A stretch of DNA of 33,242 nt from Candidatus Eiseniibacteriota bacterium (GTDB lineage Bacteria; Eisenbacteria; RBG-16-71-46; SZUA-252), in NCBI GenBank assembly GCA_005893265.1, contig VBOX01000009.1:1-33242 (forward strand), written 5' to 3'. The notes beneath the pieces were generated by a model. That model did not search any database. It saw only the letters and a program-made list of their open reading frames with translations, and was not told the DNA's origin. Within the stretch, counting starts at the first letter, position 1. Each line of letters opens with the position of its first letter. The position numbers and the translations under genes are program-made. Shown here piece by piece: positions 3,532 to 28,815 of this stretch.

Positions 3532-5166
3532 GGCGGACGCAACGCGCTTCAGGTTGCCGCTCCGAACGTCACCGACCGCGAACACGCCGTGCAGGCTCGT
3601 CTCGAGCAGGTATGGCATCCGGGCAAGAGGCCAGTGAGCGGACGCCAGGTCTTCCTGCGTCAGGTCCGCCCCCGACTTGATGAAGCCCTTGCCGTCGAGC
3701 GCGACACACCCCTCGAGCCATCGCGTATTCGGCACGGCCCCCGCCATGATGAAAAGGTGTCGGATGTCGTGGGTCTGGACCTCGCCCGTGCGCGTGTCGC
3801 GCGACGTCACCTTCTCCAAGTGGCCGTTGCCCTGGAGGGCCACGGCTTCCGTGCAAAGGCGCAGGGCGATGGAAGGATGCCCCTCGATGCGCCGGATTAG
3901 GTACCGGGACATGCTCTTGGCCAAGTCATCCGACCGCACGAGCATGTGGACGCGTTTGGTGGCCCGCGCCAGGAATACTGCTGCCTGGCCCGCGGAGTTG
4001 CCGCCTCCCACGACGATCACTTCTTCGCCGCGGCAGAGCTGTGACTCCATGGGAGTCGCGCTGTAGTAAACGCCTGCGCCCTCGAACCGGGGCAAATTAT
4101 CGATCGCGAGCTTCCGGTACTCGGCTCCCGTCGCGATGATGATCGCCCGCGCCGGCAGCTGCTCGGCACCATCGATTCCCAGGGCATACGGCTTTCGCGC
4201 GCAGATCAGCCGGGTCGCGGCCCTCGCGACCATGACTTGAGCCCCGAACTTCTGCGCCTGGGCGTACGCGCGCGCGGCAAGATCGTTCCCTGAGATGCCG
4301 GTGGGAAAGCCCAGATAGTTTTCGATTTTCGAGCTCGAGCCTGCTTGGCCACCAGGGGCGCTCGACTCCACCACGAGGACGTCGAGCCCCTCCGATGCTC
4401 CGTAGACGGCCGCGGCGAGGCCGGACGGCCCTGCGCCCACGATCACGAGGTCGCGCGCTTTTGTTACATCGATCGCCTTGTTGAAGCCGAGACAATCCGC
4501 GATTTGCTGATTGGTCGGGTTGCGTAGGACCACCTGCCCGCGACAGATAAGAACTGGAACGTCCTCGACGGAAACCTTGAAGCGGTCGAGCAGCTCCTGG
4601 ACATCGGCGTCGCGATCGAGGTCGATCTCCGAGTAGGGATGATTGTTTCGTGTCAGGAACTCCCGGATCCGCAGGGTGCCGGCGCAATGATTGGACCCCA
4701 CGAGGACGGCATCACCGAGACCGCGAGCGATCAGCTCCACCCTGCGGAGAACGAATGCGCGCATCAGGATGTCGCTCAACTCGGAGTCTGTCTGAACGAT
4801 CGAAAGAAGATGCTCGCGATCGATCTCGGTCACTTCGCTCGGGACGACGGCACGGATACGAACGAACGCGGGCCGACCCGCTAGCGTGCCGACCTCACCG
4901 GTGAACTGGCCGGGGCCCAGTTCCTTGACGAAATCCTGGCTTCTGCCTGCAGGTCGAACGATCTCCAGGCGCCCCTCGGTGACGATGAAGACTCGAGGGT
5001 TTTGGTACCCGACGTCGAGAAGCACCTCGCCGCGATCGATGGACCGCTTACGGCCGTAGCCGCCGGCCCGGCTCAATTGCTCCGGAGTGAGCACGGGAAA
5101 CATGCGCTCGTCGGGGGGACGCGTAGCTGAGAGGGCTGAACCCGCCAAAGGGGTCGTCGTGGTCAT
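3442..5166 (-). CDS. cyclic-nucleotide-binding / glutaredoxin-like / thioredoxin-reductase-like flavoprotein
   Basis: A three-part cytosolic flavoprotein of about 574 residues. Residues about 25-140 form a cNMP-binding domain (phosphate cassette FTGEVGTLAGRPAFVRIRA). Residues 150-230 are a glutaredoxin-like segment with a single Cys. From 238 onward lies the FAD/NADPH oxidoreductase, with GAGPSG at 244-249, GGQAGSSSKIENYLGFP, and the NADPH motif GGGNSAGQA. The redox CxxC of true thioredoxin reductase is replaced by SATPMESQLC, so it is probably not a classical thioredoxin reductase. The ATG at 5166 is preferred to 5241 because the first 25 extra residues look non-domain. The C-terminus is abnormal: after GDVRSGNLKRVASA the last 34 or so residues are antisense to the membrane-protein gene and lack the usual FAD-contacting end. 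Confidence 0.85.
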   Translation of the reverse strand: MTTTTPLAGSALSATRPPDERMFPVLTPEQLSRAGGYGRKRSIDRGEVLLDVGYQNPRVFIVTEGRLEIVRPAGRSQDFVKELGPGQFTGEVGTLAGRPAFVRIRAVVPSEVTEIDREHLLSIVQTDSELSDILMRAFVLRRVELIARGLGDAVLVGSNHCAGTLRIREFLTRNNHPYSEIDLDRDADVQELLDRFKVSVEDVPVLICRGQVVLRNPTNQQIADCLGFNKAIDVTKARDLVIVGAGPSGLAAAVYGASEGLDVLVVESSAPGGQAGSSSKIENYLGFPTGISGNDLAARAYAQAQKFGAQVMVARAATRLICARKPYALGIDGAEQLPARAIIIATGAEYRKLAIDNLPRFEGAGVYYSATPMESQLCRGEEVIVVGGGNSAGQAAVFLARATKRVHMLVRSDDLAKSMSRYLIRRIEGHPSIALRLCTEAVALQGNGHLEKVTSRDTRTGEVQTHDIRHLFIMAGAVPNTRWLEGCVALDGKGFIKSGADLTQEDLASAHWPLARMPYLLETSLHGVFAVGDVRSGNLKRVASAYGNIGDGVPCVVDSYEQKHERCCSDHEEC

Positions 5167-5271
5167 CGCTAGGTACCGAGAATCGCCCCTTGCAGGTGCC
5201 GGGGGATGGACAAGCGTATCAAGCCATCGTCGACAAAGCATGTACCAAATTGATCGGGCGGAGGCGCCTTC

Positions 5272-7308: not shown

Positions 7309-9641
7309 ATGTCCACTCATACCCTTTCCGGGAGGCATTTCATGTCATCCCCGATGATTCACCGGATCGTCCGGCCGGGCGTAGCGAGCGTCCTTGCCGG
7401 GCTCGCAATGGCCGCATCGCTCGCGGTTGCCATCCCCGCTCGAGCCGCCGATCCCGGCTGGCCGCGCCAATTCGATTCCTCGAGCGGTTCGTTTGTGATC
7501 TACCAGCCACAGCCCGAGAGTCTTGACGGAGATGTGCTCACGGGGCGCGCGGCGTTCTCACTGCAGAAAAGCGGAGCCGCGAGCCCTACGTTCGGGGTGT
7601 TGTGGTTCACCGAGCAGATCGAGATCGACCGCGACAGCAGCGCGGTATCCGCGCGGAGCCTCGACGTCACAAAGGTAAGGTTGCCGGGGATCACACCGGT
7701 CGAGGCGAGCCGGTACGAGATGCTGGTCGAGACCCAGGCGACAGGATGGGATCTGTCAGGCTCGCTGGAGGAGCTGCAGGCCGGTCTGGCCGCACACTCG
7801 AGCCGATCGAGCGATCGAAACTCCAGCGAGTCGTGAATACGCCGTACGCCGTGGTCTTTGATCCCAGGAGCCGCTGCTACTATCTGAACGGCGCCAATCT
7901 CTGGTACCAGGCGAAGGATCCCCTGGGTACGTGGAGCAATATTTCCAGTCCGCCCGCCGCGATTCGGGAAGTCGTGCCGCCGGACACCTCAACGTACGAT
8001 CAGGTCGAGGGCCCGCCGCCGGAAGTGCTGACCGCGACCGTGCCCACGGAGCTGATCGCCACGGACGGCCCGCCGCGATACGCGCCCCTGGTCGGCGACG
8101 AGCTGCTCTACCTCGCCAACACCGAGAGCGACGTCGTCCTCGAGGTGAGTACACAGTACCTGTACGTCCTGATCTCGGGGCGGTGGTTCCGGGGTCCGTC
8201 GATGGACGGGCCTTGGACCTTTGTGCGCGGGGACAAATTACCCGCCAGCTTCAGGCAGGTGCCGCTCGACTCGCCCAAAGGCAACATCCTGGCGAGCGTC
8301 GCGGGCACGGATCAAGCCGAAGACGCGATCGCCGATTCCGAAATACCACAAACGAGCGCGATCCAGCGCAGTGACCAGGGCTTCGAGGTCACGTACGACG
8401 GGGACCCGGAATTCGTACCGATCGAGGGCACGGACCTCCAATACGCCGTGAACACCGACGCGGAAGTGATCCTTGCCGACGGTCGCTATTACGCGTGCGA
8501 TCAGGGAGTCTGGTACATCTCGGACGACCCCGAAGGACCCTGGAGCGTCAGTGATACGCGGCCCCTGGGCGTGGATGACATCCCACCGAGCTGCCCCGTG
8601 TACGACGTGCGCTACGTCTACATCTACGACTCCACGCCGGACGTGGTCTACGTGGGCTACCTACCGGGATACCTGGGCTGCTATCCCTACTACGGCACGG
8701 TCGTTTACGGCACCGGGTACCACTACGGTTCGTGGCGGAGCCGGCGCCATTACTATCCGCGCCGCTTCACCTGGGGCTTTCACGCGCGCTATAACCCCTG
8801 GCTGAGCCGGTGGAGCTTCGGCGCCAGCTACAGCAGCGGCTTCCTTCGGGTCGGCACCCGCTGGCGCTCTGGTTCCCAAGTCGCCCCGAGCAGCGCGCGA
8901 TCGAAGTGGTTTGGCCCCGGGGGCTACCGTCGCCCGCTGGTCGCCCAAGACATGACGCTCCTCCGGACTCGCCCGGGACGCACGCGGCCGCGCGTATCCG
9001 ACGGCTTGCCGGCGAACCTATACAGCCGCACGGAAAACGTCGCGCGTGTGGACCGGAGCGCAGATCGAATTCGCATACGGTCGATTGCACCTCGGATCAC
9101 CCGGCCGGCCCGGGTGCCCGACGACGTTTTCGCGGGCAAGGACGGAAAGGTGTACCGGCGTGAGCCGAAGGGAACATGGCAGGTGAGGTCGGGGGCGAAG
9201 TGGAAGCCGACGAACCTTCCAACTCCACCGCGCACCACTCCGTTTCCTGCGACTCCACCCCCGGGAGTTCAGGAAGAGGTGAGCCATCCTTCGGCGAGGC
9301 ACTCGCGGCCCGAGGTGAGTCCGCGGCGTAACGGTCCGGCGGTCGAGCACCGGGCGCCGCAGCGCGACAACCCGCCGGAGCGTCCCGCGCCTCCCGCGGA
9401 ACGACCCGCGCCTCCTGCGGAACGACCCACGCCTCCCTCCGAGCAGCCCACGCCGGGCGACCTGGAGAAGGAGTACCGCGCCCGCGAGCGATCCGACCAT
9501 GGAGACAACTCAGACGCCCCGCAAACCGAGCGTCCGGCACCCCGGGAGCTGGAGCCACAGAGCCCGAAAGAGCATGAATCCGAGAGGGAGCGGTCGCGGC
9601 AGGACTCGAGGGAGAATTCGAGACCGAACCGGAATCGCTAG
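7309..9641 (+). CDS. large secreted protein with three WY-type modules, split by a one-base frameshift
   Basis: The N-terminal frame (7309-7836) has a signal peptide (LAGLAMAASLAVAIPARA) and a conserved domain (SGSFVIYQPQPESLDGDVL). The remaining frame (about 7797-9641) holds three related modules of about 48 residues, at 7797-7943, 8079-8225 and 8412-8552. Each has PI/PL...NT...YY/YV...W(Y/F)...GPW. A Tyr/Gly-rich stretch (YVGYLPGYLGCYPYYGT) and a Pro-rich tail follow. Resembles proteins annotated loosely as carbohydrate-binding V/XII-like; that binding is not shown here. Frames meet at 7790-7797, where GCCGCACACTC lacks one base of a continuous reading. Module 1 lacks the YDG-x-P lead seen before module 3 and the DGPP before module 2, so a longer deletion of 3n+1 bases is also possible. 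Start: ATG after AGGAGAG. Confidence 0.7.
9378..9452 (+). repeat. coding tandem repeat, Pro-rich (ERPAPPAE unit)
   Basis: Three 24-base units encode ERPAPPAE, ERPAPPAE and ERPTPPSE in the C-terminal tail of the repeat protein. Such flexible proline-rich stretches often span peptidoglycan or act as linkers. Confidence 0.8.
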
Positions 9642-13063: not shown

Positions 13064-16000
13064 TCACGGGGCAGTCACCGCCCCGACGACCGCCTGCAGC
13101 TCCGCCGCCTCACGTGCCACCGCCCGCTCGCGCGCGTGCGCCACGAGCATGTAGACCGACGGCACGACAAAGAGAGTGAAGGCCGTGCCGATGATCATGC
13201 CGCTGACGAGCGTGATGCCGATGCTGTTACGCGCCCCGGCTCCAGGGCCGCTCGCGAATACCAGCGGGAGATGCCCGAACACCGTGGCCGCGGTGGTCAT
13301 CAAGATTGGCCGCAACCGGGTCCCTGCGGCATCGATGATCGCCTGGAGCTTGTCCATCCCGGTCTCCCGCAGATGGTTCGCGAACTGAACGATGAGGATC
13401 CCGTTCTTCGCCACCAGCCCGACCAACGTGATGAGCCCCACCTGGCTATAGATGTTCATCGTCGTGAAGCCCAGGAACGAGAAGAGCAGGGCACCGCTGA
13501 TGGCCAGCGGAGCCGAGCCTGCGAGGATGACGAAGGGATCGCGGAAGCTCTCGAACTGAGCCGCGAGCACCAGGAAGATCAGGATCCCCGAAAGCAGGAA
13601 TATCCCGAGGAACCGGCTGCCCTCGGTCCGAAGCTGGCGCGACTCGCCCGCGTAATCGACCGTGAACCCCTGGGGAAGCATCCCCTTCGCCTCTTTTTCC
13701 AAGAATTGAAGCGCCTGATCCAGCGATACCCCCGGCGGAATGACACCCTGGATTCGCACGGCGTTGAGCTGTTGGAACCGCTTCAGCTCTCTGGGTTCCG
13801 TCGTGGTTTTCAAAGTCGCAAAGGTCGAGAGCGGCACAAGCTTCCCGCCGGTCCCCGTCACGTAGATGTCCTTCAGTTGGTCGGGAGTAAGGCGCTCGCT
13901 CCGCTTCACCTGCGGAATCACCTTGTAGCTGCGCCCCTGGATGCTGAAGCGATTGACGTAGTTTCCACCGAGAAGCGTCGAGAGGTCCTTTCCCGCTTCG
14001 CTCATCTCGACACCTTGGGAGCGCACCTTGTCGCGGTTGAATACGACCTTCGCTTGAGGCTGGTCATACTTGAGATCCGCGTCGGCGAACATGAACAGAC
14101 CGCTCGCGAATGCCTTCCCTACGAGCTGGTTGGCGACCTCGACGAGGCGTTCCGGCTCCGCCGTGGACGCGATGACGAAATCCACAGGGAAATCCCCGCC
14201 CCCAGGAAGCGCGGGCGGAATGATGGAGATGACGCGAATCCCCGGAATCTTCGAGAGGCTGCCGGAAGCTTCGTACTGGAGTTGCTGGGCCGTCTTCTTT
14301 CGCTCGCTCCAGGGCTTGGTCACCATGCCCCCGAAACCACCGGTCGGGAACACGAGCTGGAACGTGTTCTTGTACTCTGGGAACGAGCGGTAGACGCCCT
14401 CGACCTGCGTCGAGTAGAGCTTGGTCTGGTCGAGGGTGGAGTTCGGCGCCGCCTGGATAATCCCAAAAACGACGCTCTGATCCTCGTTGGGCGCCAGCTC
14501 GTGCTGGGAAAACATGTAGAAAGCAGGGATCAACGCCACGACGACCGCCCACACGACGTAGACGGCGGGCCGGTATTGGAGCGTCCCGGCCAGAGCCCGC
14601 TTGTATCCCTCGCGAATTCCGTCGAAGCGTCGATTGATCCACCCCGCGAAGCCGCGTTCGGTGTCTCCCGCGCGGAGCAGCTTCGATCCCATCATCGGCG
14701 AGAGCGTGAGCGCCACGACCCCGGAGACGATCACCGCCCCCGCCAGCGTGAACGCGAACTCGCGGAACAAGGATCCCGTCAACCCGCCCTGGATCGCGAC
14801 CGGCGTATAGACCGCCGCCAGCGTGAGCGTCATGGCGATGATCGGGCCGATCAGCTCGCGGGCCGCGTCGATCGCCGCGCGGAATGGACTGGCGCCGAGA
14901 CTCAAATGCCGCTCGACGTTTTCAACCATCACGATCGCGTCGTCGACCACGAGGCCCACCGAGAGCACGATGGCGAGCAGCGTGAGCAGATTGATGGTGA
15001 AGCCGGCCGCCATCATCAGGAAGACGGCGCCGATCAAGGAGATCGGAATCGCCACGACCGGGATGATGACCGCGCGCACGGAGCCGAGGAACAGGAAGAT
15101 GACGAGGATGACGATGAGGAGCGTCTCCGTGAGGGTCTTCAAGACCTCGTGGATGGCACTCTCGATGTACTCCGTCGAATCGTACGGGATGCCGGCCTTC
15201 ATCCCGACGGGGAGCTGCGCTCGGATGCCCGGCATCGCCTCGCGCACCCGCCGGATCACCTCCAGCGTATTGGCGGTCGGAAGCACCCAGACGCCCATGA
15301 ATACGGCGCCCTGCCCATCGAAGCGAACATCCTGTTCGTAGTTTTCGGCGCCCAGCGAGACGTCCGCGATATCGCCGAGGCGGACGACGACCCCCTTGTT
15401 CTCCTTGACGACCAGACGGCGGAACTCCTCGGGGGTCTTGAGATCGGTGTTGGCGACGAGGTTCACCGAAACCATCGAGCCCTTCGTCTGGCCCAACGTG
15501 GAGAGGTAGTTGTTATCGGCAAGCGCGTCGCGCACCTGGGACGGTGAAATGCCCATGGCCGCCATCTTCTCCGGCTTGAGCCAAACACGCATCGCGAAGG
15601 TGCGGCCGCCGAGGATTTCGGCTCGCTGCACGCCGTCGATCGAGCTCAACTTCGGCTGCACGACGCGTGTCAGGTAATCGGTGATCTGGTTCTGATCGAG
15701 GTCACTGGAGGAGAAGCCCAGGTACATCGCCGCGAACCGATTGTCCGCGGTCTCCAGCTCGATGACCGGCGCCTGCGCCTCCGGCGGCAGGTCGTTCCGC
15801 ACCTGCGCCACCTTCGCCTGGACCTGCGTGAGGGCAGCGTTCGTGTCGTAGTTGAGCTTCAAGTGAACGGTGATCGTGCTCAGGCCCTGGGCGCTGGATG
15901 ACTCGATGTAGTCGATTCCGTCAGCGCTCGCGATCACGCGCTCCAAGGGGGTCGTGATGAACCCGCGCACGAGATCGGCGTTGGCTCCGACGTACGCCGT

Positions 16001-16144
16001 CGTCACCGTGAGGATCGCGATGTCGCTGCGGGGGTACTGCCGCACGCTGAGCGAGCGGATCGATTGCAATCCGGCGATCAGGATGACCAGGCTGACGACC
16101 ATCGCCAGGACCGGCCGGCGGATGAAGAGATCGGTGAATTTCAT
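13064..16144 (-). CDS. RND (HAE1/AcrB-like) inner-membrane efflux permease
   Basis: A full-length RND permease of 1026 residues. It would form the inner-membrane trimer of a tripartite exporter driven by protons. It begins FTDLFIRRPVLAMVVSLVIL (TM1). TM4 carries the proton-relay pair in SVGLVVDDAIVMVENVERH, and TM10 carries the lysine in GLVAKNGILIVQFANH. Porter-domain features such as GGRTFAMRVWL are present. The drug/hydrophobe (HAE1) type is favoured over the metal (HME) type because the DDAIVMVEN form is present. Its ATG overlaps the stop of the adaptor gene by one base (TGATG), so the two are coupled. As the last gene of the Os1348-TolC-MFP-RND operon, it may export a peptide or lipid-like product rather than only drugs; the substrate is unknown. 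Confidence 0.93.
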   Translation of the reverse strand: MKFTDLFIRRPVLAMVVSLVILIAGLQSIRSLSVRQYPRSDIAILTVTTAYVGANADLVRGFITTPLERVIASADGIDYIESSSAQGLSTITVHLKLNYDTNAALTQVQAKVAQVRNDLPPEAQAPVIELETADNRFAAMYLGFSSSDLDQNQITDYLTRVVQPKLSSIDGVQRAEILGGRTFAMRVWLKPEKMAAMGISPSQVRDALADNNYLSTLGQTKGSMVSVNLVANTDLKTPEEFRRLVVKENKGVVVRLGDIADVSLGAENYEQDVRFDGQGAVFMGVWVLPTANTLEVIRRVREAMPGIRAQLPVGMKAGIPYDSTEYIESAIHEVLKTLTETLLIVILVIFLFLGSVRAVIIPVVAIPISLIGAVFLMMAAGFTINLLTLLAIVLSVGLVVDDAIVMVENVERHLSLGASPFRAAIDAARELIGPIIAMTLTLAAVYTPVAIQGGLTGSLFREFAFTLAGAVIVSGVVALTLSPMMGSKLLRAGDTERGFAGWINRRFDGIREGYKRALAGTLQYRPAVYVVWAVVVALIPAFYMFSQHELAPNEDQSVVFGIIQAAPNSTLDQTKLYSTQVEGVYRSFPEYKNTFQLVFPTGGFGGMVTKPWSERKKTAQQLQYEASGSLSKIPGIRVISIIPPALPGGGDFPVDFVIASTAEPERLVEVANQLVGKAFASGLFMFADADLKYDQPQAKVVFNRDKVRSQGVEMSEAGKDLSTLLGGNYVNRFSIQGRSYKVIPQVKRSERLTPDQLKDIYVTGTGGKLVPLSTFATLKTTTEPRELKRFQQLNAVRIQGVIPPGVSLDQALQFLEKEAKGMLPQGFTVDYAGESRQLRTEGSRFLGIFLLSGILIFLVLAAQFESFRDPFVILAGSAPLAISGALLFSFLGFTTMNIYSQVGLITLVGLVAKNGILIVQFANHLRETGMDKLQAIIDAAGTRLRPILMTTAATVFGHLPLVFASGPGAGARNSIGITLVSGMIIGTAFTLFVVPSVYMLVAHARERAVAREAAELQAVVGAVTAP

Positions 16145-17265
16145 CAGCTGTCCTCCGGCTTCGGCGCGGGGTCGTTGCCCGGCCGGATCGAATTGTTGAC
16201 GAAAACGGACGCGCCGTTCCGCAGCTTGAAGACGCCCGAGGTCACAACCTCTTCGCCCGACTTGAGGCCGGAGACGACGGCGACCTGATCGCCGCGGCTG
16301 CCGCCCAGCTTCACGAAGCGCTGCTCGACTCCGCGGTAGGTCTTGCCGTTCGGTCCCTTGAGGTCCCGCACGACGAAGATCGAGTTGCCGTAGGGTGCGT
16401 AGCTGACGGCTGTCGCCGGAAGCGCGATGACGGTGGCGCCCTTCCCGAGCCGCGCCTCCACTTCCACGAACATGCCGGGGCGCAGCCTGCCGGCGGGATT
16501 CCGGAATACCGCCTGGATCTGGACGTTGCGCGTCGCCTCGTCGACGACGGAGTTGATGGCCGTGACCTTGCCGGCGGCGATGACCGCGACGCTCTCGGCC
16601 GCCACGTTCACAGACCCACCTACCCTCAAATCGCCGAGCTCCTGTTGCGGCACCGAGAAGTTGACGTAGACCGGATCCAGCGACTGGAGTGGGACGACCG
16701 GATCGCCCGCGGTGAGGTACTGGCCGAGGTTGATCTGGCGGATGCCAAGCATCCCCGAGAACGGCGCCCGGATCTCCTTGCGCTCGATGGTGGCTTTGAT
16801 CTCACCCACCCGCGCCTCCGCCTGCTTCGCCTCGGCCGCGATCCGGTCGTACTCGGCCTGCGCGACGACCCCCTTTGCCAAGAGCTGCTCCGCCCGCTCG
16901 AAGTCCAGGCGCGTGAGGTCGCGTTGCGCCTCGGCGGCGGCCAGCTGGGCCCGCTCCTGGCTCACGTCGAGCCTCACCAGCACCTCGCCCACGTGGACCA
17001 TCCTGCCGGATTCGAAGGTGATCCCGCCGACGATACCGGGCAGGTCCGCGCTGACGGTGACGCCTTGAACCGCCGCCACCGTCCCGATGACGCTCGAGAC
17101 CGCGGGCCACTGCTCCTGGCTGGCGGCGATCGTCGTGACGGCCTCGGGAGGCGGCTGCCAGCCCCCCTGCGCCATCGCCGTACGGATCTGCTGGAATTTC
17201 ACAAAGCCCAGGCCGGCGACAAGCACGGCCATCGCGATGACCACGAAAATCATTCGCTTTCTCAT
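16144..17265 (-). CDS. RND periplasmic adaptor (membrane fusion protein)
   Basis: This protein bridges the permease and the TolC channel. The start at 17265 (MRKRMIFV) is chosen because GGAGGA lies at good distance, followed by a signal/anchor helix (VVIAMAVLVAGLGFV). The lipoyl half-motifs (VTVSADLPGIVGGITFESGRMVHVG and later APFSGMLGIRQINLGQYL) flank a coiled-coil hairpin (about residues 95-145: QLAAAEAQRDLTRLDFERAEQ and onward). Beta-barrel and membrane-proximal domains follow. Length (373 residues) is normal for the family. The gene lies 13 bases after the TolC gene and overlaps the permease gene, consistent with a single operon. Confidence 0.92.
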   Translation of the reverse strand: MRKRMIFVVIAMAVLVAGLGFVKFQQIRTAMAQGGWQPPPEAVTTIAASQEQWPAVSSVIGTVAAVQGVTVSADLPGIVGGITFESGRMVHVGEVLVRLDVSQERAQLAAAEAQRDLTRLDFERAEQLLAKGVVAQAEYDRIAAEAKQAEARVGEIKATIERKEIRAPFSGMLGIRQINLGQYLTAGDPVVPLQSLDPVYVNFSVPQQELGDLRVGGSVNVAAESVAVIAAGKVTAINSVVDEATRNVQIQAVFRNPAGRLRPGMFVEVEARLGKGATVIALPATAVSYAPYGNSIFVVRDLKGPNGKTYRGVEQRFVKLGGSRGDQVAVVSGLKSGEEVVTSGVFKLRNGASVFVNNSIRPGNDPAPKPEDS

Positions 17266-17278
17266 GAGTGGTTCCTCC

Positions 17279-18841
17279 TTATCGTCCTGTTCCATCGAAG
17301 TTGATACCGCGTTCCTCAATCAGCGATCCGGTTGCGCGCGCCATCTCGGTGCGTGCCGTCCGGTAGTCGGTAAGAGCCGAAATTTCGTCGAGCCGCGCGC
17401 GGGACAGGTCGTTCTGGCGCGTCAGCACCAGGAAGTTCGTCGAAAGCCCCGTGTCGTATCGATCGCGCTCGGCCGAAAGCTGGATCTCCGCCGCTTCGCG
17501 GCCCGACCGGGCCGCTTCGATCCTCTGGCCCGCCGTTTCCAAAGCCGCGGCGGCATCGAGAACCTCGGCGCGGATGGTCTTGCGGACGCGGACCAGATCC
17601 GTTTCGGACTGACGCTCGACGTGCCGCGCTACCGCGGCGTTTCCCCGAGCCGCGCGGTTTCCGATCGGGAGACCCAGCACCAGCGCCACACGCGCGGCGT
17701 CGAAATCCCCCCTGCCGAGCGACTCGAAGGACTTCCCGAAACTCCCGTCCAGCTCGGATGGGAGGGTCCCAGGCGAGCCTCCTGGATTGAGTGAACCCGC
17801 GATGCCGAATCGGTCATAGGAAACCACCGCATCCAGGCTCGGCCAGATTCCGTCGCGGGCGAACGCGGTCTCGGCGCGCCGCCGCTTCACCACCGCATCC
17901 GCGATCGCAAGCTCGGGCCGGGACGAGAGCGCGCGCTCCAATGACGCGGGCACGTCGACCGGTTGAACCTCGACCGTCGCGTCCTCGACCGGAGCGAGCT
18001 GTTCACTCCAAAGGGCGTCCCCCGCGCCGTCCAGGATCAGGAGCTTCAGGGTGTTCTCCGCGCGGGCCAGCGCCTCCCTCGAGGCGAGAAGCTCCCCGCG
18101 CCGCCGCTCCAGCTCCGCACGAGGTTGGGCAAGCTCGGTACGGGGTGCCGAGCCGGTCTCGACGCGGGTCTGCGTCTCCCCCAGCTGCTCCTCCGCAAGA
18201 TGCACCGCTTGCTGGCGCACCTCGATTTCCAGCCGGACCGCCACGAGCGTCCAGTAGGACCGCTCGACGGAGGCAACCGTCTCGGTGAGGGCGCGCCTGA
18301 GCGAGGCGGTAGCGCCTTCGCGGCCCGCCTTCGCGACGCGCACCGATAGCCGAGCCGCATCCGTGCCGCGGTTGCGCAGCAGGGGTTGCCGCAGCTCCAC
18401 ACCCACGCGCGTTCTGTACGCCGGCGACAGAAGGGTCAGGCCCTCATCGGTCTCGCGAGCGCCCCTCGCCCTGAGCGATAGCGCGCCGCCCGTGGGAAGG
18501 AGCTGTCGGACCGCCGCGCCGGCTTCGGACGATTTGAATTCAGGACCGATCTCGGCCGGCGACGTGCCTGTGAAGGAGGAGTTCAAGGGCTCCGTTGATT
18601 TCGACCACGCGCCGTCCAGCTCGACCAAGGGGTCGTATGCACCGCTCGCCGCGGTAACGGACGCTTTCGACGCGGCCAGCGACTCACGCTCGATCACCAA
18701 CCCCTCGTTCTTCTGGAGGGCGAGGCTGATCGCCTCGTTCAGGGTTAGACGATGCTCGGCGCCGAGCGCGATCCCCGCGGGCAAGGCCGCGGTCAGGGGA
18801 AGCGCCAGCGCGACGATTCGTTTCAGGGTCGCGATATTCAT
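17279..18841 (-). CDS. TolC-family outer-membrane channel protein
   Basis: A 520-residue outer-membrane efflux protein. It has a signal peptide (IVALALPLTAALPAGIALG), then two TolC-type repeats, each beginning with an N-terminal helix pattern (HRLTLNEAISLALQKN and VPASLERALSSRPELAIADA) and followed by long Ala/Glu/Arg-rich coiled coils. LRQPLLRNRGTDAARLSVRVA matches the first beta-strand/helix entry common to the family. The ATG overlaps the stop of the Os1348-like gene by four bases (ATGA), so its translation is coupled to that small gene. With the adaptor and permease downstream it completes a tripartite exporter. Confidence 0.92.
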   Translation of the reverse strand: MNIATLKRIVALALPLTAALPAGIALGAEHRLTLNEAISLALQKNEGLVIERESLAASKASVTAASGAYDPLVELDGAWSKSTEPLNSSFTGTSPAEIGPEFKSSEAGAAVRQLLPTGGALSLRARGARETDEGLTLLSPAYRTRVGVELRQPLLRNRGTDAARLSVRVAKAGREGATASLRRALTETVASVERSYWTLVAVRLEIEVRQQAVHLAEEQLGETQTRVETGSAPRTELAQPRAELERRRGELLASREALARAENTLKLLILDGAGDALWSEQLAPVEDATVEVQPVDVPASLERALSSRPELAIADAVVKRRRAETAFARDGIWPSLDAVVSYDRFGIAGSLNPGGSPGTLPSELDGSFGKSFESLGRGDFDAARVALVLGLPIGNRAARGNAAVARHVERQSETDLVRVRKTIRAEVLDAAAALETAGQRIEAARSGREAAEIQLSAERDRYDTGLSTNFLVLTRQNDLSRARLDEISALTDYRTARTEMARATGSLIEERGINFDGTGR

Positions 18842-19074
18842 GTGCCACCTCGTTGGAGATCGGTCTTCTGAAGACGCGCGTCGATCGCCTCGGCGAAGCG
18901 CGCGAGCTCTTGCGGATCCAGCGAGACCAAGGACCCCAGCTCACAAGGGGTCAGCTCCATCCCCCGCTCGGCCAGTTCCAACAGCGTTGCTTTCGGATTC
19001 GCGATGAACCGGCGACGGAGCGCCTCGTCCGTCGCCAGCACACCGATGATGCGTTCGACATAGAGTTGACTCAT
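18838..19074 (-). CDS. Os1348-like NHLP-clan small protein
   Basis: A 78-residue protein, MSQLYVERIIGVLATDEALR at the start, then FIANPKATLLELAERGMELT and a final DARLQK. The arrangement (N-terminal short helix, F-x-x-(D/N)P block, RG-(M/W)-ELT, then an L-D/N-P block and a DARLQK-type ending) resembles Os1348-family members of the nitrile-hydratase-leader (NHLP) clan, whose relatives serve as leader-type domains of ribosomal peptides. No clear double-Gly cleavage site or Cys/Ser/Thr-rich core is seen; the tail after DARLQK is only TDLQRGGT. A leader-like or carrier/regulatory role is therefore an inference. The start at 19074 follows AGGAGA; the predicted sigma-54 promoter leaves a 17-base leader. 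It is the first gene of the operon and is coupled to the TolC gene. Confidence 0.75.
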   Translation of the reverse strand: MSQLYVERIIGVLATDEALRRRFIANPKATLLELAERGMELTPCELGSLVSLDPQELARFAEAIDARLQKTDLQRGGT

Positions 19075-19098: not shown

Positions 19099-19118
19099 TA
19101 TCTCAAGAGATGTGCCAA
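19099..19118 (-). promoter_or_regulatory. sigma-54-type promoter of the Os1348-like operon
   Basis: On the minus strand TTGGCAC, five bases, TTGAGATA. The -24 element is a perfect TTGGCAC. The -12 element is TTGAG where the standard form is TTGC(A/T); the same variant occurs in the twin site at 20124-20143. Predicted transcription begins about 12 bases downstream, leaving a 17-base leader with a ribosome site before the ATG at 19074. Confidence 0.7.
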
Positions 19119-19152
19119 GTCGACGCACGAGCGCGAGGGAGGCGCGACTGCA

Positions 19153-19170
19153 TTGCGCTCACGGGACTTG
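19153..19170. promoter_or_regulatory. putative activator-binding site (UAS), copy 1
   Basis: TTGCGCTCACGGGACTTG on the plus strand. It matches the copy at 20178-20195 at 16 of 18 positions and lies exactly 34 bp upstream of the -24 element, as in the twin promoter. Confidence 0.6.
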
Positions 19171-19312
19171 GCGTGCGAGAGGGACACAGGAGCGGGAGCA
19201 ACGGGGTTCGAACTACCTGTAGGGAAATCGACAGAACGTCGATCCATGCGCGGGCGCGATCGGCCTGCGTTGCAGCTCTTGTCGGACGGGGCCTGCGCGT
19301 GCTCGCCGGGTC

Positions 19313-19339
19313 GACGCCGGGCCCATGGGGCCCGGCGTC
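19313..19339 (-). terminator. 12-bp perfect hairpin after the beta-barrel gene
   Basis: GACGCCGGGCCC, a 3-base loop, GGGCCCGGCGTC. It lies 49 bases past the stop of the barrel gene. There is no T-run, so it is either a terminator of an unusual kind or a 3'-end stabilising hairpin. Confidence 0.5.
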
Positions 19340-19387
19340 TGGAGGGGGCGAATGGAGGGATTGGATGAAGCGGATTGTTGGAGGGAA

Positions 19388-20032
19388 CTAGAACTTGTAC
19401 GAAAGGCCGACCGTGCCGCGCTCCATCCAGATCTGATCCGCGCCACTGGCATCGGCTAGACCCGTTGCGCCATCCGAGGGGAACGCCACGAGCTCGCGAA
19501 GGTCCGCGCGCAGTGCCCACCGCTCGGTGATCCCGTAGGTCGTACCTGCTCCGAAGTTGATCGCGAACGCGGTTTGCGACTTGTCCAGCTGTGGCACGCG
19601 ATCCGCGTCGGTGTTGGACAGAAACGTTACCGCTCCGGCCCCGGCCACCAGATAGGGCGACCAGTTGCGGACCGGAAAGTCCGCTCTCAGGTTCGCCTGG
19701 TAGGCGAGGACGTCGGGTGTTTTCCGATCTTGGCTCGCACCGGATCCCACATCGATGCTCTGCTTGACCGGAATCATCCAGGTGAACTCTCCCTCGGCCG
19801 CCAGCCTCGGGGTCACGCGATACGTCACGGTCGCGACAGCGGGAATGTTGACGAAGCGATCCGGCAGCGCCGTGTCGTTCTTGTTCAGGGCCTGAATTCC
19901 ACCCATGAGCGAGACCTCCGTCCGTGACCCGAACGATTCTTGCGCCGCGGCGGTCGACGCCGCTCCCAGGATGAAGAGCGAGACGACTGCTGCTCCGATG
20001 GCGGCGCTCGTGCTCCTTCTACTGACCTTCAT
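19388..20032 (-). CDS. outer-membrane beta-barrel protein
   Basis: A 214-residue protein with a signal peptide (VVSLFILGAASTAAAQ) and repeated amphipathic beta strands. It ends with LSYKF, a C-terminal aromatic residue that serves as the BAM targeting signal. The size and pattern (EVSLMGGIQAL, YRVTPRLAAEGEFTW, SPYLVAGAGAVTF, NFGAGTTYGITERWALRADL) fit an eight-strand OmpA/OprF-N-like barrel. It has its own sigma-54-type promoter and upstream element matching those of the next operon, so it belongs to the same regulon. Its role may be structural or accessory to the exporter; this is inferred. Confidence 0.85.
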   Translation of the reverse strand: MKVSRRSTSAAIGAAVVSLFILGAASTAAAQESFGSRTEVSLMGGIQALNKNDTALPDRFVNIPAVATVTYRVTPRLAAEGEFTWMIPVKQSIDVGSGASQDRKTPDVLAYQANLRADFPVRNWSPYLVAGAGAVTFLSNTDADRVPQLDKSQTAFAINFGAGTTYGITERWALRADLRELVAFPSDGATGLADASGADQIWMERGTVGLSYKF

Positions 20033-20123
20033 GGCACTTCCTCCTCGTGATCGATCCGCGACGGCGCGGTGCTAGGCGCCGGGTGCGTCATGCATGCCGC
20101 CCATCGCTTCCTCTGGTCCCGTG

Positions 20124-20143
20124 TATCTCAAGCGGCGTGCCAA
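20124..20143 (-). promoter_or_regulatory. sigma-54-type promoter of the beta-barrel gene
   Basis: On the minus strand TTGGCAC, five bases, TTGAGATA, the same layout as at 19099-19118. Predicted transcription start is about 80 bases before the ATG at 20032. Confidence 0.68.
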
Positions 20144-20177
20144 CCGATCGAACGGGACGCGCAGCTGCCGATACTCT

Positions 20178-20195
20178 TTGCGCTCGCGGGAGTTG
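20178..20195. promoter_or_regulatory. putative activator-binding site (UAS), copy 2
   Basis: TTGCGCTCGCGGGAGTTG on the plus strand, 34 bp upstream of the -24 element, identical in spacing to copy 1. The core CTC-GCGG-GAG is a short inverted repeat. Confidence 0.6.
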
Positions 20196-20309
20196 TGTTG
20201 CCGGGGGGGAGATGGTGTGGGTCCGGCGGGATGTCGCGCCGGTTGTGGCGGGATCGACAAGCTGTCGGTTTCTCCGCAGGCGACCCGCGGAGCGTCGCTG
20301 CCGAGCCGG

Positions 20310-22385
20310 CTAGCTGACTCCGTACTTTTCGATGCGTGAGTAAAGCTGGGCGCGCGTGAGGCCCAAGAGGCGGGCGGCCCTGGACTTGTTGCCCTTGGCC
20401 TGGCTCAGAGCCTTCTCGACCATGCCGCGCTCCACGTCTTCGAGATTCATACCCTCGGAGGGAATCGGCGCCGCCGCTTTCGCCGAGCCGTTCGTCGCTT
20501 CGAAATGCGCCGCCCCGACGCTCGCCGCCATGGTGGGAAGGTGATCGCGGGTAATCAAACCCCCGTCGCAAAGGAGAATCGCGCGCTCGATCGCGTTCCG
20601 CAGCTCGCGCACGTTCCCCGGCCAGCGATAGGCGAGCAGCCATTCGCGTGCGTCCTTCGAGATCCCCGCGGCGGGCCGACCCATGGTCCTGCCCAGGTCC
20701 TCGAGAAACGCCTCGGCGAGAGGCAGAATATCCTCCGGTCGCTCGCGCAAGGGCGCGATGTGGATCTGGAACACATTGAGGCGATAGTACAAGTCCTCGC
20801 GAAACGTCTGCCGCGCGATGCTCGCCGCCAGGTCGCGGTTCGTGGCCGCGATGACGCGGACATCGGCCTTGAGCGTGCGCGTCCCGCCCAACCGTTGGAA
20901 CTCGCGCTGCTCGAGGACCCGGAGAAACTTCGCCTGGACCAGCGGGCTCATCTCGGCAATCTCGTCGAGGAACAGGGTTCCGCCCGCGGCCTGCTCCAGG
21001 CGGCCGATCTTGGTTGCGATCGCCCCGGTGAAGGCTCCCTTTTCGTGCCCGAACAGCTCCGACTCGAGGAGCTGCTCCGGCAGCGCCGCGCAGTTGATCG
21101 CGACGAAAGGACGACCCGACCGAGGCGAGCCTTGGTGGATGAGGCTTGAGATCACTTCCTTGCCGGTCCCCGATTCCCCCGTGATGAGCACCGTGGTTTC
21201 CGAAGCTGTCACTCGCTTGACCGAGAGCAGGCTCTGCTTCCAGGAGGGAGAGACCCCGATGATCCGGCCCCGTCCCCGGGACTCCAGCTCGCGGGCGAGC
21301 GTCTCGACGGTCGCCTCGAGCCTCTCTGCCCGCTCGCGCGCTTCCGCGGCGACGCGGGCCTCCTCGGCCAGCCGTTGGTGGGAAAGCATCAGGCCGACGC
21401 GGTCGGCGAGGCGGATGGCAACCTCCGTATCCTCCCAGCTGTAACGTGACGGCTCCCGGTGGAAAAAGCTGAGACCTCCCCTGACTTCCCCCGATAGCCA
21501 AACCGGGACCCGAAGCCAGGACCGCATCCCCGAGGAGATGATGAGGCGCTGGCGCTCCGTGTCGGGGGGGACTTCGGTGGGGATATCATGGATGATCTCG
21601 AAGTCGATCCGACGGTCCAGCTCACTCGCGGTGAGCACAACCGCTTCGGTCGGCGCCGGATTGTCGCTCTCGCCCGCGAGGGCCGAGATACGGATCGTTC
21701 GGGCGCGCATGTCCAGCTCGGTCAAGCAGGCCAAGTCATGCGGCAAGACTTGTTGCATCCCGTCGGAGAGCCGCTGGAAAACCTCGCGCACGTCGAGCGA
21801 CTCGGCGAGCGTGGAGAGGAGCGCCTCGATCCTGTCGAGCCGGTCCCTTCGACGGCGCTCGATGTCCCACAGCCGCCAGTGCTCGACGGCCGAGCCCAGC
21901 AAAGCTGCAATCGGCCGGAGAACGTCCTGATGCTCGTCCGTGAACGCGTGCGGACTGTACGCGGCCAGCCAGACGCCTCCTCGAAGGGTGTCCGTCGAGC
22001 GAAAAGGCTCCCACATCGCCGACCGCACTCCTCCCTCGAGCGCTTTCGCGTCGAAGAAGAAGCTCCGGTCGAACTCTATCAGCGCGTCTTCGATGCGAGG
22101 GTTCGGCCCCGACCGTGGACGCATGCGTGGGGACCACGACGTCAATGGGATCGGCTCGGTACACACAGGGCCCTGGCACGGGACGGTGCTCGCGTGGAGG
22201 ACCGCCCGGGCGTCGTCGATCAAGCGAACGACTCCCATGTTGTCGAACGGGATGACCCGGCGGACGGAGGTCGCGACCCGGTCGAAGACGTCCTGGAGCT
22301 CCAAGGTCTCCGAGGCGGTCTCGGCGATCTCCGAAAGGACGTCGGCCAAGAGCTGAGCATCAATGGACGGCGCGGCTACGTTCAT
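20310..22385 (-). CDS. sigma-54-dependent enhancer-binding protein with two GAF domains
   Basis: A 691-residue transcriptional activator. GAF domains span about residues 20-175 and 195-340. A coiled-coil linker (EARVAAEARERAERLEATVE) follows. The AAA+ domain has Walker A GESGTGKE (403-410), the sigma-54-contact loop GAFTGA (450-455) and Walker B GGTLFLDE (468-475), and a Fis-type helix-turn-helix (SRAARLLGLTRAQLYSRIEKYG) ends the protein. It would sense a small molecule through its GAF domains, bind upstream elements and hydrolyse ATP to open sigma-54 promoters. It has no receiver domain, so it is not a standard response regulator. It lies directly upstream of two sigma-54-type promoters in the window. 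The ATG at 22385 lies after a palindrome. Function class is certain; the ligand is unknown. Confidence 0.95.
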   Translation of the reverse strand: MNVAAPSIDAQLLADVLSEIAETASETLELQDVFDRVATSVRRVIPFDNMGVVRLIDDARAVLHASTVPCQGPVCTEPIPLTSWSPRMRPRSGPNPRIEDALIEFDRSFFFDAKALEGGVRSAMWEPFRSTDTLRGGVWLAAYSPHAFTDEHQDVLRPIAALLGSAVEHWRLWDIERRRRDRLDRIEALLSTLAESLDVREVFQRLSDGMQQVLPHDLACLTELDMRARTIRISALAGESDNPAPTEAVVLTASELDRRIDFEIIHDIPTEVPPDTERQRLIISSGMRSWLRVPVWLSGEVRGGLSFFHREPSRYSWEDTEVAIRLADRVGLMLSHQRLAEEARVAAEARERAERLEATVETLARELESRGRGRIIGVSPSWKQSLLSVKRVTASETTVLITGESGTGKEVISSLIHQGSPRSGRPFVAINCAALPEQLLESELFGHEKGAFTGAIATKIGRLEQAAGGTLFLDEIAEMSPLVQAKFLRVLEQREFQRLGGTRTLKADVRVIAATNRDLAASIARQTFREDLYYRLNVFQIHIAPLRERPEDILPLAEAFLEDLGRTMGRPAAGISKDAREWLLAYRWPGNVRELRNAIERAILLCDGGLITRDHLPTMAASVGAAHFEATNGSAKAAAPIPSEGMNLEDVERGMVEKALSQAKGNKSRAARLLGLTRAQLYSRIEKYGVS

Positions 22386-24275: not shown

Positions 24276-24303
24276 ATCATATGCCAATATGGGAATATGT
24301 CAA
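24276..24303 (-). promoter_or_regulatory. strong sigma-70-type promoter with operator-like AT-rich repeats
   Basis: On the minus strand TTGACA (24298-24303), 16 bases, TATGAT (24276-24281). The spacer holds CATAT...ATATG inverted repeats around CCATATTGG. The -10 box ends six bases before the ArsR ATG, so the transcript should be leaderless. Confidence 0.65.
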
Positions 24304-24384
24304 CCGCGATTTTTCAGCGGCCGCTTGGCCGCTTCGCGCGTGGCGATTCTCGACGAGACCGCATTCATCCGTTACCTTGGCGGA

Positions 24385-24924
24385 ATGATGCAGGTTCCAG
24401 GAGTCAACGTCCTCGAGACGTCACGGCTGATCCTTCGCCGCTTCTCTCTCGACGATGCCGCCTTTGTTTTCGGGCTGGTGAACGACCCGGCATGGCTGGA
24501 GCACATCGGAGACCGCAAGGTGAGAACCCTCGAGGACGCCCGCGCCTATCTGCGCAGAGGAGCGCTCGCGATGTACGAGACGATGGGCTTCGGCATGTAC
24601 GTTGTGGCGCTCAAGCGGTCGGGGGAGCCCATCGGGACGTGCGGCTTAGTCAAGCGAGAGGGGCTTGACGATGTTGATATCGGGTTCGCCTTCCTTCCAC
24701 AGTATCGCGGCCAGGGGTTCGCTTTCGAGTCGGCCGCGGCCGTGCTCGGGCATGCGAGAGCGCTGGGTCTGAAACGGGTCGTCGCGATCGTTTCGGCCGC
24801 CAACCATCGCTCGATCCGGCTCCTCGAGAAGATCGGCCTCACGTTCGAGCGCATGGTGAAGCTCCCAGGCGAAGACGAGGAGATCCCGTTGTACGCCTAC
24901 CAGCGCGACGATGCTCAGCGGTAG
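24385..24924 (+). CDS. GNAT (RimJ/RimL-like) acetyltransferase
   Basis: A GNAT acetyltransferase of about 179 residues. It begins with the RimJ-like LETSRLILRRFSLDDAAFVF. Its acetyl-CoA pyrophosphate loop (motif A) is FLPQYRGQGFAFESAAAVL. The motif-B region AANHRSIRLLEKIGLTFERM supports the assignment. The start is ATG at 24385 or 24388; the longer frame from GTG 24289 overlaps the divergent ArsR promoter. It would acetylate an amine such as a ribosomal-protein N-terminus or small molecule; the acceptor cannot be predicted. Confidence 0.88.
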   Translation: MMQVPGVNVLETSRLILRRFSLDDAAFVFGLVNDPAWLEHIGDRKVRTLEDARAYLRRGALAMYETMGFGMYVVALKRSGEPIGTCGLVKREGLDDVDIGFAFLPQYRGQGFAFESAAAVLGHARALGLKRVVAIVSAANHRSIRLLEKIGLTFERMVKLPGEDEEIPLYAYQRDDAQR

Positions 24925-26124: not shown

Positions 26125-27044
26125 CTACTTTGCGGGCTCTACTCTGATCTTGCCGTTTTCGACGGCCACCAGGATGTCGATGCCGGCCTGTCTCAGCTGT
26201 GTGGTGATCGCGCTGGTCATGTCCGCATCGCTCATCGATTCGGAGTTCGGTATCTCGGCCTTCGCCGTCTTGCCGTTCGAGGTCACCTCCACGACGAGCG
26301 TGGTGGGGCCGCCGCTCGCTCTCTTCCTCTGGATCTTGACCGCGAAGCCCTCCCCTTCCACCGGCGCGCCGCCTTTCGTGAGGATCAGCTGAGGCAAGCC
26401 GGTCTCGGGCGGAGCGGTCGATGGGTCGCCCACGTTCTGCCGCTCGACCTTCAATTGGATGTCGCGACCTCCCCCGGGACGATCGGTGACCGATACCTGG
26501 GCATCGGACACGCCCGCCTCGGCGAGACGGCTCCGGATCTCCGACTCCAGCTCCGACGCCGCCTTCCCATCGACGCCGATCCGGATGATCTGGTCCCAGG
26601 CGTAGGCAGCCGCGGGATAACGGACATGGGCGAATTCGCGCGCAGGACAAACCGCGGCGCTCCGTCCCCGGCTAAAGCCTCGACCCTGACACCGCCTGAG
26701 CCCAGGAGACCTTGGAGATCCTGGGCGATTGCCTGAACCTGTTCCTTTCCATTCCCCGAGACTGTCAACGCGACATCGTTTCCCACAACCCGCTCATAGG
26801 AGACGGGCACCACGAGGGCGGCCACGACGACGAAAGCCCCGAGTGCGACTGCGGCAACCGCGGGACGAGTGCGAACCGAATGGATACCAGCCATGAGCTT
26901 CCTCCTGATGTTCCAAGGCCCCGGGCTCGATTCGAGCCCGCGCCGGCGAACCGTTTGAATTGTCGTGTCCAGGTCCGGCACGTTGCGGGCGCTGACCGCC
27001 CGCAGAGCCGCAAGATCCTGGTCCAGATGGGACTCATCATTCAT
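26125..27044 (-). CDS. membrane anti-sigma-factor-like protein, split by a one-base frameshift
   Basis: The N-terminal frame (MNDESHLDQDLAALRAVSA..., 27044 down to about 26640) has a cytoplasmic domain of about 60 residues, then a single transmembrane segment (AVAAVALGAFVVVAALVVPV). The other frame continues with AYAWDQIIRIGVDGKAASEL and then EIRSRLAEAGVSDAQVSV, through to the stop at 26125. One base missing in the CGCGCGAATTC region (about 26632-26645) would restore a single product of about 306 residues. The gene overlaps the end of the ECF sigma gene by eight bases; that arrangement and the single-pass layout identify it as the probable anti-sigma partner. Without a zinc motif it is not a classical ZAS-type; recognition by sequence is weak. 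Confidence 0.7.
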
Positions 27045-27642
27045 GGGATTTCCCCTTCGCCGGCCAGGCCATGGCCCCGGCCGTCAGCCGCTCGAGGTAC
27101 GGCGTGGATGCGTCACCAGCCCCGTCACGCAGGTAGAACCGCCGCAGTTTTTCCCGGCCGCGGGTCAGACGCGACTTCACAGCCGAGTGCGTGACGCCCT
27201 GCATTTCCGCGATCTCTTCCACCGAGAACCCTTCGATCTCGTGTAGCACGACCGCCTCGCGTTGCACTGGCTTGAGCCCCGCCAGTGCCCGAACCGCACG
27301 CTCGGCTCGCCGACGCTCTTCCTCCCACGACGCTCCGTCCTCGCCGACGGGCTCCCTGTCGCGACCGAATGCCTCCTCGATCGGCACCGACACGCGACGG
27401 AATCGCCTCAGACGGGAGCGATGCCTGGATAGGAGCGTGGCGAAAAACCATGACCGGAACCGGGACTCGTCGCGCAGGCCATCCAGCTTGTCGAACGCAC
27501 GCAGGACGGTGTCCTGATAGAGATCGTCGCCATCGTCGTTCGACCGGCACAATCGGCGCGCGGTAGCGGCCGCTTGCTTGTGGATCGGCGTGAGAAGCCT
27601 GATCAGTCTGCTCCAGCGAGCCGTGCCTGCGTGGGAGTCCAT
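27037..27642 (-). CDS. ECF-family sigma factor
   Basis: A 201-residue sigma factor of the extracytoplasmic-function type. Region 2 shows DDLYQDTVLRAFDKLDGLRD followed by SRFRSWFFATLLSRHRSRLR (-10 recognition). Region 4 shows LKPVQREAVVLHEIEGFSVE with EIAEMQGVTHSAVKSRLTRG (helix-turn-helix). The start at 27642 (MDSHAGTARW) is preferred because the upstream extension looks non-coding and contains the promoter. The downstream overlapping gene is the probable anti-sigma factor. It likely directs an envelope-stress or adaptive regulon, including itself. Confidence 0.9.
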   Translation of the reverse strand: MDSHAGTARWSRLIRLLTPIHKQAAATARRLCRSNDDGDDLYQDTVLRAFDKLDGLRDESRFRSWFFATLLSRHRSRLRRFRRVSVPIEEAFGRDREPVGEDGASWEEERRRAERAVRALAGLKPVQREAVVLHEIEGFSVEEIAEMQGVTHSAVKSRLTRGREKLRRFYLRDGAGDASTPYLERLTAGAMAWPAKGKSHE

Positions 27643-27683
27643 GTTCCGCTTTGACGCTCCTCCGTTCCCGGGTACCCACATAG

Positions 27684-27712
27684 GAGACGCCTGGGGGTAC
27701 CCCGGGGGTTGC
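27684..27712 (-). promoter_or_regulatory. probable ECF-type promoter of the sigma gene
   Basis: On the minus strand GCAACC (27707-27712), 17 bases, CGTCTC (27684-27689). The AAC motif at -35 and CGTC at -10 are typical of ECF promoters, and this one lies 42 bases before the sigma ATG, suggesting autoregulation. Confidence 0.55.
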
Positions 27713-27848
27713 AGAAATAAGAGCGGTCGACGAGGTAAAGCGACGAGGTGAACCGGCCAGTCTATCCCTTGCCCCACCGGCTCCTCAAGAACGCTACGCA
27801 AGCCGCCGATAAGCCGTCGGATAGCCCACTTTCTTGCGGAGGGTCGTC

Positions 27849-28754
27849 ATGAAGCTCGCAGCCTGCCCCAAGTGTCATGCCCAGTACGACGTCGCCGACG
27901 TGCTCGGCGAAACCGTGACGTGCCCGTGCGGCGCGACATTTCCCGCGACGGCGCCGGCCGCCGTCGATGCCGCGGTGACCCGATGCGCGGCTTGCGGCGC
28001 GCTCGTGGGAGACGAGGAGCGGATCTGCTCCTACTGTCAGGCCACCGTTACCCGTGAGCCCGCGCCGACCGGCCCCGTCTGCCCCGAGTGCTACGCCCGC
28101 AATCCCGAACGGGCGCTCCACTGCACGGCGTGCGGGGTCGCGTTCCTTCCGCAGCCTGTCCGCAAGACGGGGGAGCTCCTGGAATGTCCCATCTGCCCCG
28201 GAGTCCAGCTGGCGGCACGCAGCCTGGGTGGACTCTGGGTGGACGAATGCCCGATGTGCCTCGGCCTTTGGGCGCCGGGCGACGTCATGGACCGGCTCAT
28301 CGATCGCGTTCGAGAGCGACGCCGCCAGGAGGGCCCGCCTCCCTCGGACCATATACATCGCAACCGGCGCTCGCGCTGGCAGGCGCGGATCGCTTATCGG
28401 AAATGCCCCGTGTGCAGCGGGGCGATGCAACGCAAGAACTTCGCCGGCCACTCGGGCGTCGTCGTGGACTGGTGCGGCAGCCACGGCACCTGGCTCGACA
28501 CGCACGAGATGGAGGACATCGCGGCGTTCGTGCTCGAGGGAGGCCTCCAAAACACGCCTGCCGCATCCAGGGATGGGGATTGGTCCCTCCCCGCCGACCC
28601 CGCAAAGGCGGCGGCCGTTCTCGCCGCGGAGCAGCTTCTCGCGGAGGAGCGCTCGCGCTCCCGTGCGCGCGCCTTCCCGCTGGAAGATTGGGGCATCGAC
28701 TCGGGACGGGTCGTCAAGGGAATCGGTGACCTGTTCGCGAAAATCCTGAAATGA
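27849..28754 (+). CDS. multi-zinc-ribbon protein with zf-TFIIB domains
   Basis: A 301-residue protein with many CxxC knuckles: CPKC/CPCG near residues 6-30, CAAC/CSYC, CPEC/CTAC, CPIC, WVDECPMCLGLWAPGDVMD and, later, CPVC plus WCGSHGTWLDTHEMEDI. The last two blocks match zf-TFIIB modules. The protein lacks a signal peptide and should be cytoplasmic. The start at 27849 follows GGAGGG. It sits just before an SPFH-domain gene, and this pairing occurs in other bacteria where these proteins are thought to form a membrane-associated quality-control or bactofilin-like assembly; that role is not proven. Confidence 0.85.
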   Translation: MKLAACPKCHAQYDVADVLGETVTCPCGATFPATAPAAVDAAVTRCAACGALVGDEERICSYCQATVTREPAPTGPVCPECYARNPERALHCTACGVAFLPQPVRKTGELLECPICPGVQLAARSLGGLWVDECPMCLGLWAPGDVMDRLIDRVRERRRQEGPPPSDHIHRNRRSRWQARIAYRKCPVCSGAMQRKNFAGHSGVVVDWCGSHGTWLDTHEMEDIAAFVLEGGLQNTPAASRDGDWSLPADPAKAAAVLAAEQLLAEERSRSRARAFPLEDWGIDSGRVVKGIGDLFAKILK

Positions 28755-28815
28755 AAGGCCCACGGGGCGTCACGGGCAGCGATGCCTCTCGATGCACCCA
28801 CTCAAGGGGGAAACG

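Follow-up and report, generated by a model that had tools for sequence, protein, structure and literature searches.

A putative two-promoter sigma-54 regulon with a dedicated activator and three phased promoter elements in a genome of the phylum Eisenbacteria

Gene content of the locus

The sequence analysed here (the window) is a 33,242-nucleotide stretch of contig VBOX01000009.1 (GenBank assembly GCA_005893265.1) from a soil bacterium belonging to Eisenbacteria, an uncultured phylum; its genome amounts to 2.48 Mb. The window was found to carry, on the minus strand at 20310..22385, a gene for a 691-aa sigma-54 activator (bEBP) with the domain order GAF-GAF-AAA+ (GAFTGA)-Fis-type HTH (Pfam Sigma54_activat 3.2e-70, GAF_2, HTH_8). 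Downstream of it, all on the same strand, lie genes for a 214-aa outer-membrane beta-barrel protein (19388..20032; Pfam OMP_b-brl 1.7e-14) that has orthologues in relatives, a 78-aa small protein of the Os1348 family (18838..19074), a TolC-type outer-membrane factor (17279..18841; Pfam OEP 7e-45), an RND periplasmic adaptor or MFP (16144..17319; NCBIfam RND_mfp 8e-72, exceeding its cut-off) and an RND inner-membrane pump of the AcrB/multidrug type (13064..16144; Pfam ACR_tran 1.2e-262). These Pfam and NCBIfam matches bear out the first-pass annotation of the sequence, which had named a barrel gene, an Os1348-TolC-MFP-RND operon and an adjacent sigma-54 activator gene. A hairpin with a 12-bp stem (19313..19339, minus strand) is located 3' of the barrel gene, the 46-nt stretch having a folding energy of -31.4 kcal/mol and a z of -4.2, and has counterparts at the matching place in the relatives G006, G039 and G008. 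As judged from its sequence, the hairpin is a probable terminator dividing the barrel unit from the Os1348 operon.

The 78-aa protein scores 64.3 bits against NCBIfam NF038399 (cut-off 40), which places it in the Os1348 family of the NHLP clan, and it is conserved end to end in 10 genomes. An NHLP RiPP precursor was considered and set aside, as the whole length is conserved rather than a leader followed by a variable core. In Pseudomonas sp. Os17 an Os1348-family small protein also occurs beside RND efflux genes (PMC7726476). The Os17 Os1348 cluster is GacA-controlled and continues with GNAT, HEXXH and SagB-type genes, and its pump genes are on the opposite strand, adjoining their own regulator gene EmhR (PMC7726476). 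Here, in contrast, the Os1348 gene is co-directional with the pump genes and preceded by a sigma-54-type promoter, and no modifying enzyme (YcaO, SagB or lanthipeptide type) was seen among the window ORFs scanned. A GNAT acetyltransferase gene is present in the window about 2 kb upstream of the activator gene (24289-24924, plus strand); although GNAT occurs in the Os17 cluster too, this gene is on the opposite strand and is probably unrelated to the Os1348 system.

Elsewhere in the window, a single protein (3442-5241, minus strand) combines a cyclic-nucleotide-binding domain, a weak glutaredoxin-like stretch and a pyridine nucleotide-disulphide oxidoreductase, a 679-aa open reading frame (7602-9641, plus strand) has no Pfam match, and an ECF-type sigma factor frame (27037-28763, minus strand) overlaps, at the upstream end, a 333-aa frame that likewise lacks one.

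The activator and the sigma-54 machinery

The motifs GESGTGKE and GAFTGA are invariant in the activator, and its HTH_8 match (3e-14) completes the features of a bEBP of the NtrC/NifA class. Its orthologues are 68-79% identical, with a well conserved HTH. The closest NCBIfam model is NifA (TIGR01817), and the closest PDB chain is also NifA; the HTH alone had no match in PDB. Identification of the activator as NifA itself was rejected, since its score of 379.4 bits is under the curated equivalog cut-off of 528.85. The sigma-54 gene rpoN, which the first-pass annotation had asked to be looked for, is encoded in the home genome (PF04552 at G000:C36:14592-15068, 1.5e-65). Two IHF-like proteins, which score best to the IHF beta/alpha models with both under cut-off, and one HU-like protein are encoded there as well.

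The -24/-12 promoters

Two minus-strand sites sharing TTGGCAC-N5-TTGAGATA had been proposed as paired promoters, and both proved correct base for base. One (19099..19118, TTGGCACATCTCTTGAGATA) precedes the Os1348-TolC-MFP-RND operon and the other (20124..20143, TTGGCACGCCGCTTGAGATA) precedes the barrel gene; each matches the pattern with 0 mismatches, no other site in the window does, and orthologous promoters could be aligned with both. Dinucleotide shuffles of the window gave a mean of 0.17 sites at ≤3 mismatches, and a genome-wide search at ≤2 mismatches returned four further sites, each with 2 mismatches. The pair is unique in the 2.48-Mb genome and not scattered at random, the outcome that the first-pass annotation had wished to see checked.

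The sigma-54 criterion applied was a GG at -24 and a TTGC-type -12 at the proper spacing (TGGCAC-N5-TTGC). Both window promoters read TTGGCAC-N5-TTGA, with correct spacing and the last base off consensus, so that the departure from TTGC at -12 noted earlier is indeed present in each. For comparison, 17 orthologous promoters from 10 genomes were assembled, together with one extra promoter in G001; all 17 retain the -24/-12 site, and 16 of them have TTGA at -12. TTGA was rejected as a mark of this regulon alone in the home genome, where other intergenic sigma-54-like sites use it too. Across relatives TTGA is enriched in the regulon (Fisher p about 0.0002 to 0.0015), and in those whose other sites mostly have TTGC the regulon keeps it (p about 0.0006 to 0.0015), comparisons that involve small counts and some sites that are perhaps not real promoters.

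The 18-bp element

Above each promoter lies an 18-bp element, CAAGTCCCGTGAGCGCAA at 19153..19170 for the Os1348 operon and CAACTCCCGCGAGCGCAA at 20178..20195 for the barrel gene (both minus strand). The two copies are identical at 16 of 18 positions, each is separated from its promoter by exactly 34 bp, as had been described, and in each a CAA begins 54 bp above the -24 GG (GG-54). A 16/18 match at equal offset was not reached in any of 20,000 shuffles, the maximum being 15, and the element has no other occurrence in the genome at 0-1 mismatches. The CAA core is found at GG-53/-54 in 15/17 promoters, compared with ≤7 in 5,000 rotations, and in 11/13 when the own genus is reduced to one genome per genus. 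The full 18-bp sequence is kept in the own genus and in some other genomes, and distant relatives keep the CAA core alone. The element is asymmetric; its CAA core is in place, and the TTR part of the E. coli IHF consensus (WATCARNNNNTTR) is absent. The CAA repeats 15 bp downstream of itself inside the element (GG-54 and GG-39), possibly as a direct repeat, the GG-39 copy occurring in 5/17 promoters.

A search for a CAA element common to all sigma-54-like promoters did not establish one; because the CAA lies at scattered distances at other sigma-54-like sites in these genomes, a general bending site was not shown. At one such site (L130, G000:C53:4907-4922) a conserved sigma-54-like promoter has TTGA at -12 and CAA at GG-57. 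It has counterparts in G006 (L156) and G003 (L157), and the small gene downstream, the product of which begins like MRNNWEG, is probably a further sigma-54-controlled gene of the lineage.

A conserved palindrome upstream of both promoters

Side-by-side reading of the orthologous promoters disclosed a third element, absent from the first-pass annotation, at 20243-20279 (barrel promoter) and 19217-19253 (Os1348 promoter), both on the minus strand. This palindrome, the putative upstream activator site (UAS), is more strongly conserved than the 18-bp element. Its consensus is ATCGACAG-N-CTGTCGAT, after which one more half-site completes the TGT-N10-ACA that NifA recognises (PMC6296734). At the barrel promoter the core dyad is ACCGACAG-C-TTGTCGAT (20253-20269), with a further half-site at 20243-20250 and a weak fourth at 20272-20279; at the Os1348 promoter it is ATCGACGT-T-CTGTCGAT (19227-19243), with the further half-site CCCTACAG at 19217-19224. 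Both window copies contain TGT-N10-ACA at enhancer distance. In relatives either ACA or GCA is found, and variant left triplets occur in G006_bar and G037_Os.

With a leave-one-genome-out matrix the best match fell at GG-125 to -128 in 15/17 promoters; the remaining two had theirs at GG-114 or -117. For 14 of those 15, both window sites among them, none of 400 shuffles was as good, the exception being G042_Os (7/400). Apart from these scans and G042, the UAS consensus was derived from the promoters later scored; moreover, the shuffles overstate independence because the promoters are related by descent, even if barrel and Os1348 promoters within one genome are otherwise dissimilar. In 15 promoters the right arm of the UAS begins 116-119 bp above the GG; in G039_Os, G001_p1 and G037_Os the distance is 105, 106 and 108 bp, shorter by 10-13 bp, or about one helical turn. 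In G042_Os the placement of this arm is a best fit inside a degenerate site. Matches to the CTGTCGAT half-site averaged 3.7, 6.1, 7.2, 5.4 and 1.8 of 8 over arms 1-5 against a background of 2.0, arms 2 and 3 being slightly lowered by a wrong registration of G039_Os. On these averages three arms are clear, and a weak fourth may be present. Searched alone, the palindrome exceeded its reversed control in 13/13 genomes whether the activator was present or absent, and was in this form uninformative.

Distribution among relatives

The module of activator, barrel, Os1348, TolC, MFP and RND genes recurs in Candidatus Eisenbacteria relatives, and every transcription unit compared carries the three phased elements, namely the -24/-12 site, the core of the 18-bp element and the palindrome. 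Relatives of the N-terminal half of the activator were detected in 9/47 genomes of the class, and close relatives of the Os1348-like protein in those 9 and in G042, with a weak match in G044 (E 5.6e-4). The UAS right arm together with the promoter was found in 8/9 activator genomes versus 4/38 others; the genome missed, G040, has the one-base variant TGTTGAT. The four matches in genomes lacking the activator are probably due to chance, because they have no clear left arm and their promoter sites lie inside open frames 231 to 808 codons long. Only two places in the home genome combine the UAS with the promoter, and these are the promoters of the window.

In G003 and G001 the activator gene is on a separate contig while the module, the UAS and both promoters stay together, so the UAS accompanies the targets and not the activator gene. 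G040 and G018, without a barrel gene upstream of Os1348, have one UAS-promoter each. In G042, an 80% complete assembly in which the activator was not found, the promoter and the CAA at GG-54 are kept and the UAS is degenerate. A third UAS-promoter pair is located in G001 directly upstream of the barrel promoter (L134, G001:C62, 219-337), with the UAS about one helical turn nearer and TAA replacing CAA at GG-53.

Interpretation of the three elements

What can be read directly from the genomes compared is that the elements exist, that they are conserved at fixed spacing and that they occur together with the activator. These findings suggest a two-promoter sigma-54 regulon in which one dedicated activator acts from the dyad and an IHF/HU-type protein bends the DNA at the 18-bp element, an arrangement that we regard as likely. 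A dedicated two-promoter regulon with an adjacent activator had been put forward in the first-pass annotation, and the presence of rpoN, the recurrence of the layout, the uniqueness of the sites and the tracking of the activator all argue for it. In the proposed mechanism, dimers of the GAF-GAF-AAA+-Fis protein would sit on the dyad, about 118 bp above each -24 GG, the three clear half-sites, possibly with a fourth, offering room for two adjacent dimers. The bending protein would occupy the 18-bp element, midway, and a DNA loop would bring the activated AAA+ ring to RNA polymerase-sigma-54 at -24/-12, from which transcription is predicted to start. A signal sensed by the GAF domains would turn on the barrel gene and the Os1348-TolC-MFP-RND operon together, as separate units split by the probable hairpin terminator.

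Known systems offer partial parallels. As at NifA-activated nif promoters, a -24/-12 site, an upstream TGT-N10-ACA and a midway element at the IHF position are combined, and the activator has GAF-AAA+-Fis domains as NifA does; the protein described here differs in its two GAF domains and in a score well under the NifA cut-off. The half-site is extended relative to the nif UAS (CTGTCGAT) and an extra arm is present, the -12 is TTGA and not TTGC, and the targets are an outer-membrane protein and an efflux operon; no nif genes were seen in the window. The geometry of activator site, midway element and sigma-54 site matches that of the Desulfovibrio vulgaris orp1 promoter (DVU2106), in which the activator site is at -131, a functional IHF site CATCACAAGCTCG with the core CACAAGCTC at -79, and the sigma-54 site at -13 (PMC3897727). 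Activator, targets and activator-site sequence are different in orp1, and IHF dependence, proven there, is for the present promoters an extrapolation.

The role of the 18-bp element is where other readings have to be weighed. The element stands at about -78, halfway from the dyad to the promoter, a position typical of IHF binding; with the orp1 IHF site at -79 and IHF-like proteins encoded in the genome, it is probably a DNA-bending site of the IHF type, a candidate assignment in which we have moderate confidence. With the dyad still taken as the activator site, the element could instead contact the alpha subunit of polymerase in an UP-like manner or be bound by a second dedicated regulator. 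Its fixed distance from the promoter, the unmatched TTR part of the IHF consensus and the scattered CAA distances at other sigma-54-like sites would fit such a role, but the position and the CAAGCTC-type core resemble the functional orp1 IHF site and IHF-like proteins are at hand, and we judge it unlikely. Somewhat more doubtful is that an undescribed dedicated factor, or a new promoter element, acts here with the activator at a fixed distance; if true, this would be a three-part sigma-54 switch and not the usual activator plus IHF.

Two further readings give the activator itself a contact at the 18-bp element, and both seem improbable. In the first, the dyad would be its strong site and the 18-bp element a secondary contact of the hexamer: the two hold a locked position with respect to one another as well as to the promoter, and the use of several sites is frequent among bEBPs (PMC6296734), but the element bears no likeness to the CTGTCGAT half-site. 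In the second, the activator would contact the element itself, at about -78, as the first-pass annotation had it, which would leave the upstream dyad to some other regulator. The element is the longest string common to the two window promoters and its position is fixed in 15/17; nonetheless it is asymmetric and reduced to the CAA core in distant relatives, whereas the dyad persists there, has NifA-type geometry at the usual enhancer distance and, with the promoter, follows activator presence across the class. That part of the earlier proposal is not supported, and the sequence comparison suggests the conserved dyad as the best candidate for the activator site. Finally, chance is refuted and a simple recent duplication of one promoter region is most improbable, for although two copies in one locus could stem from duplication, the bases between the elements differ, as had been pointed out, no shuffle (0/20,000) equalled the match and the three-element layout repeats at both promoters in several genomes; an ancient duplication is a possible origin that would leave the function unchanged.

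The preferred reading, an activator on the dyad with bending at the 18-bp element, would provide a testable assignment of activator, site and targets in Eisenbacteria, a phylum for which we know of no cultured model and which the literature searched nowhere mentions together with sigma-54. Looping that depends on the helix face would find natural evidence in the shifts of about one turn in the spacing of the UAS. One activator-dependent switch would govern both a small protein of the Os1348 type and an RND pump, which bears on the role of the Os1348 family.
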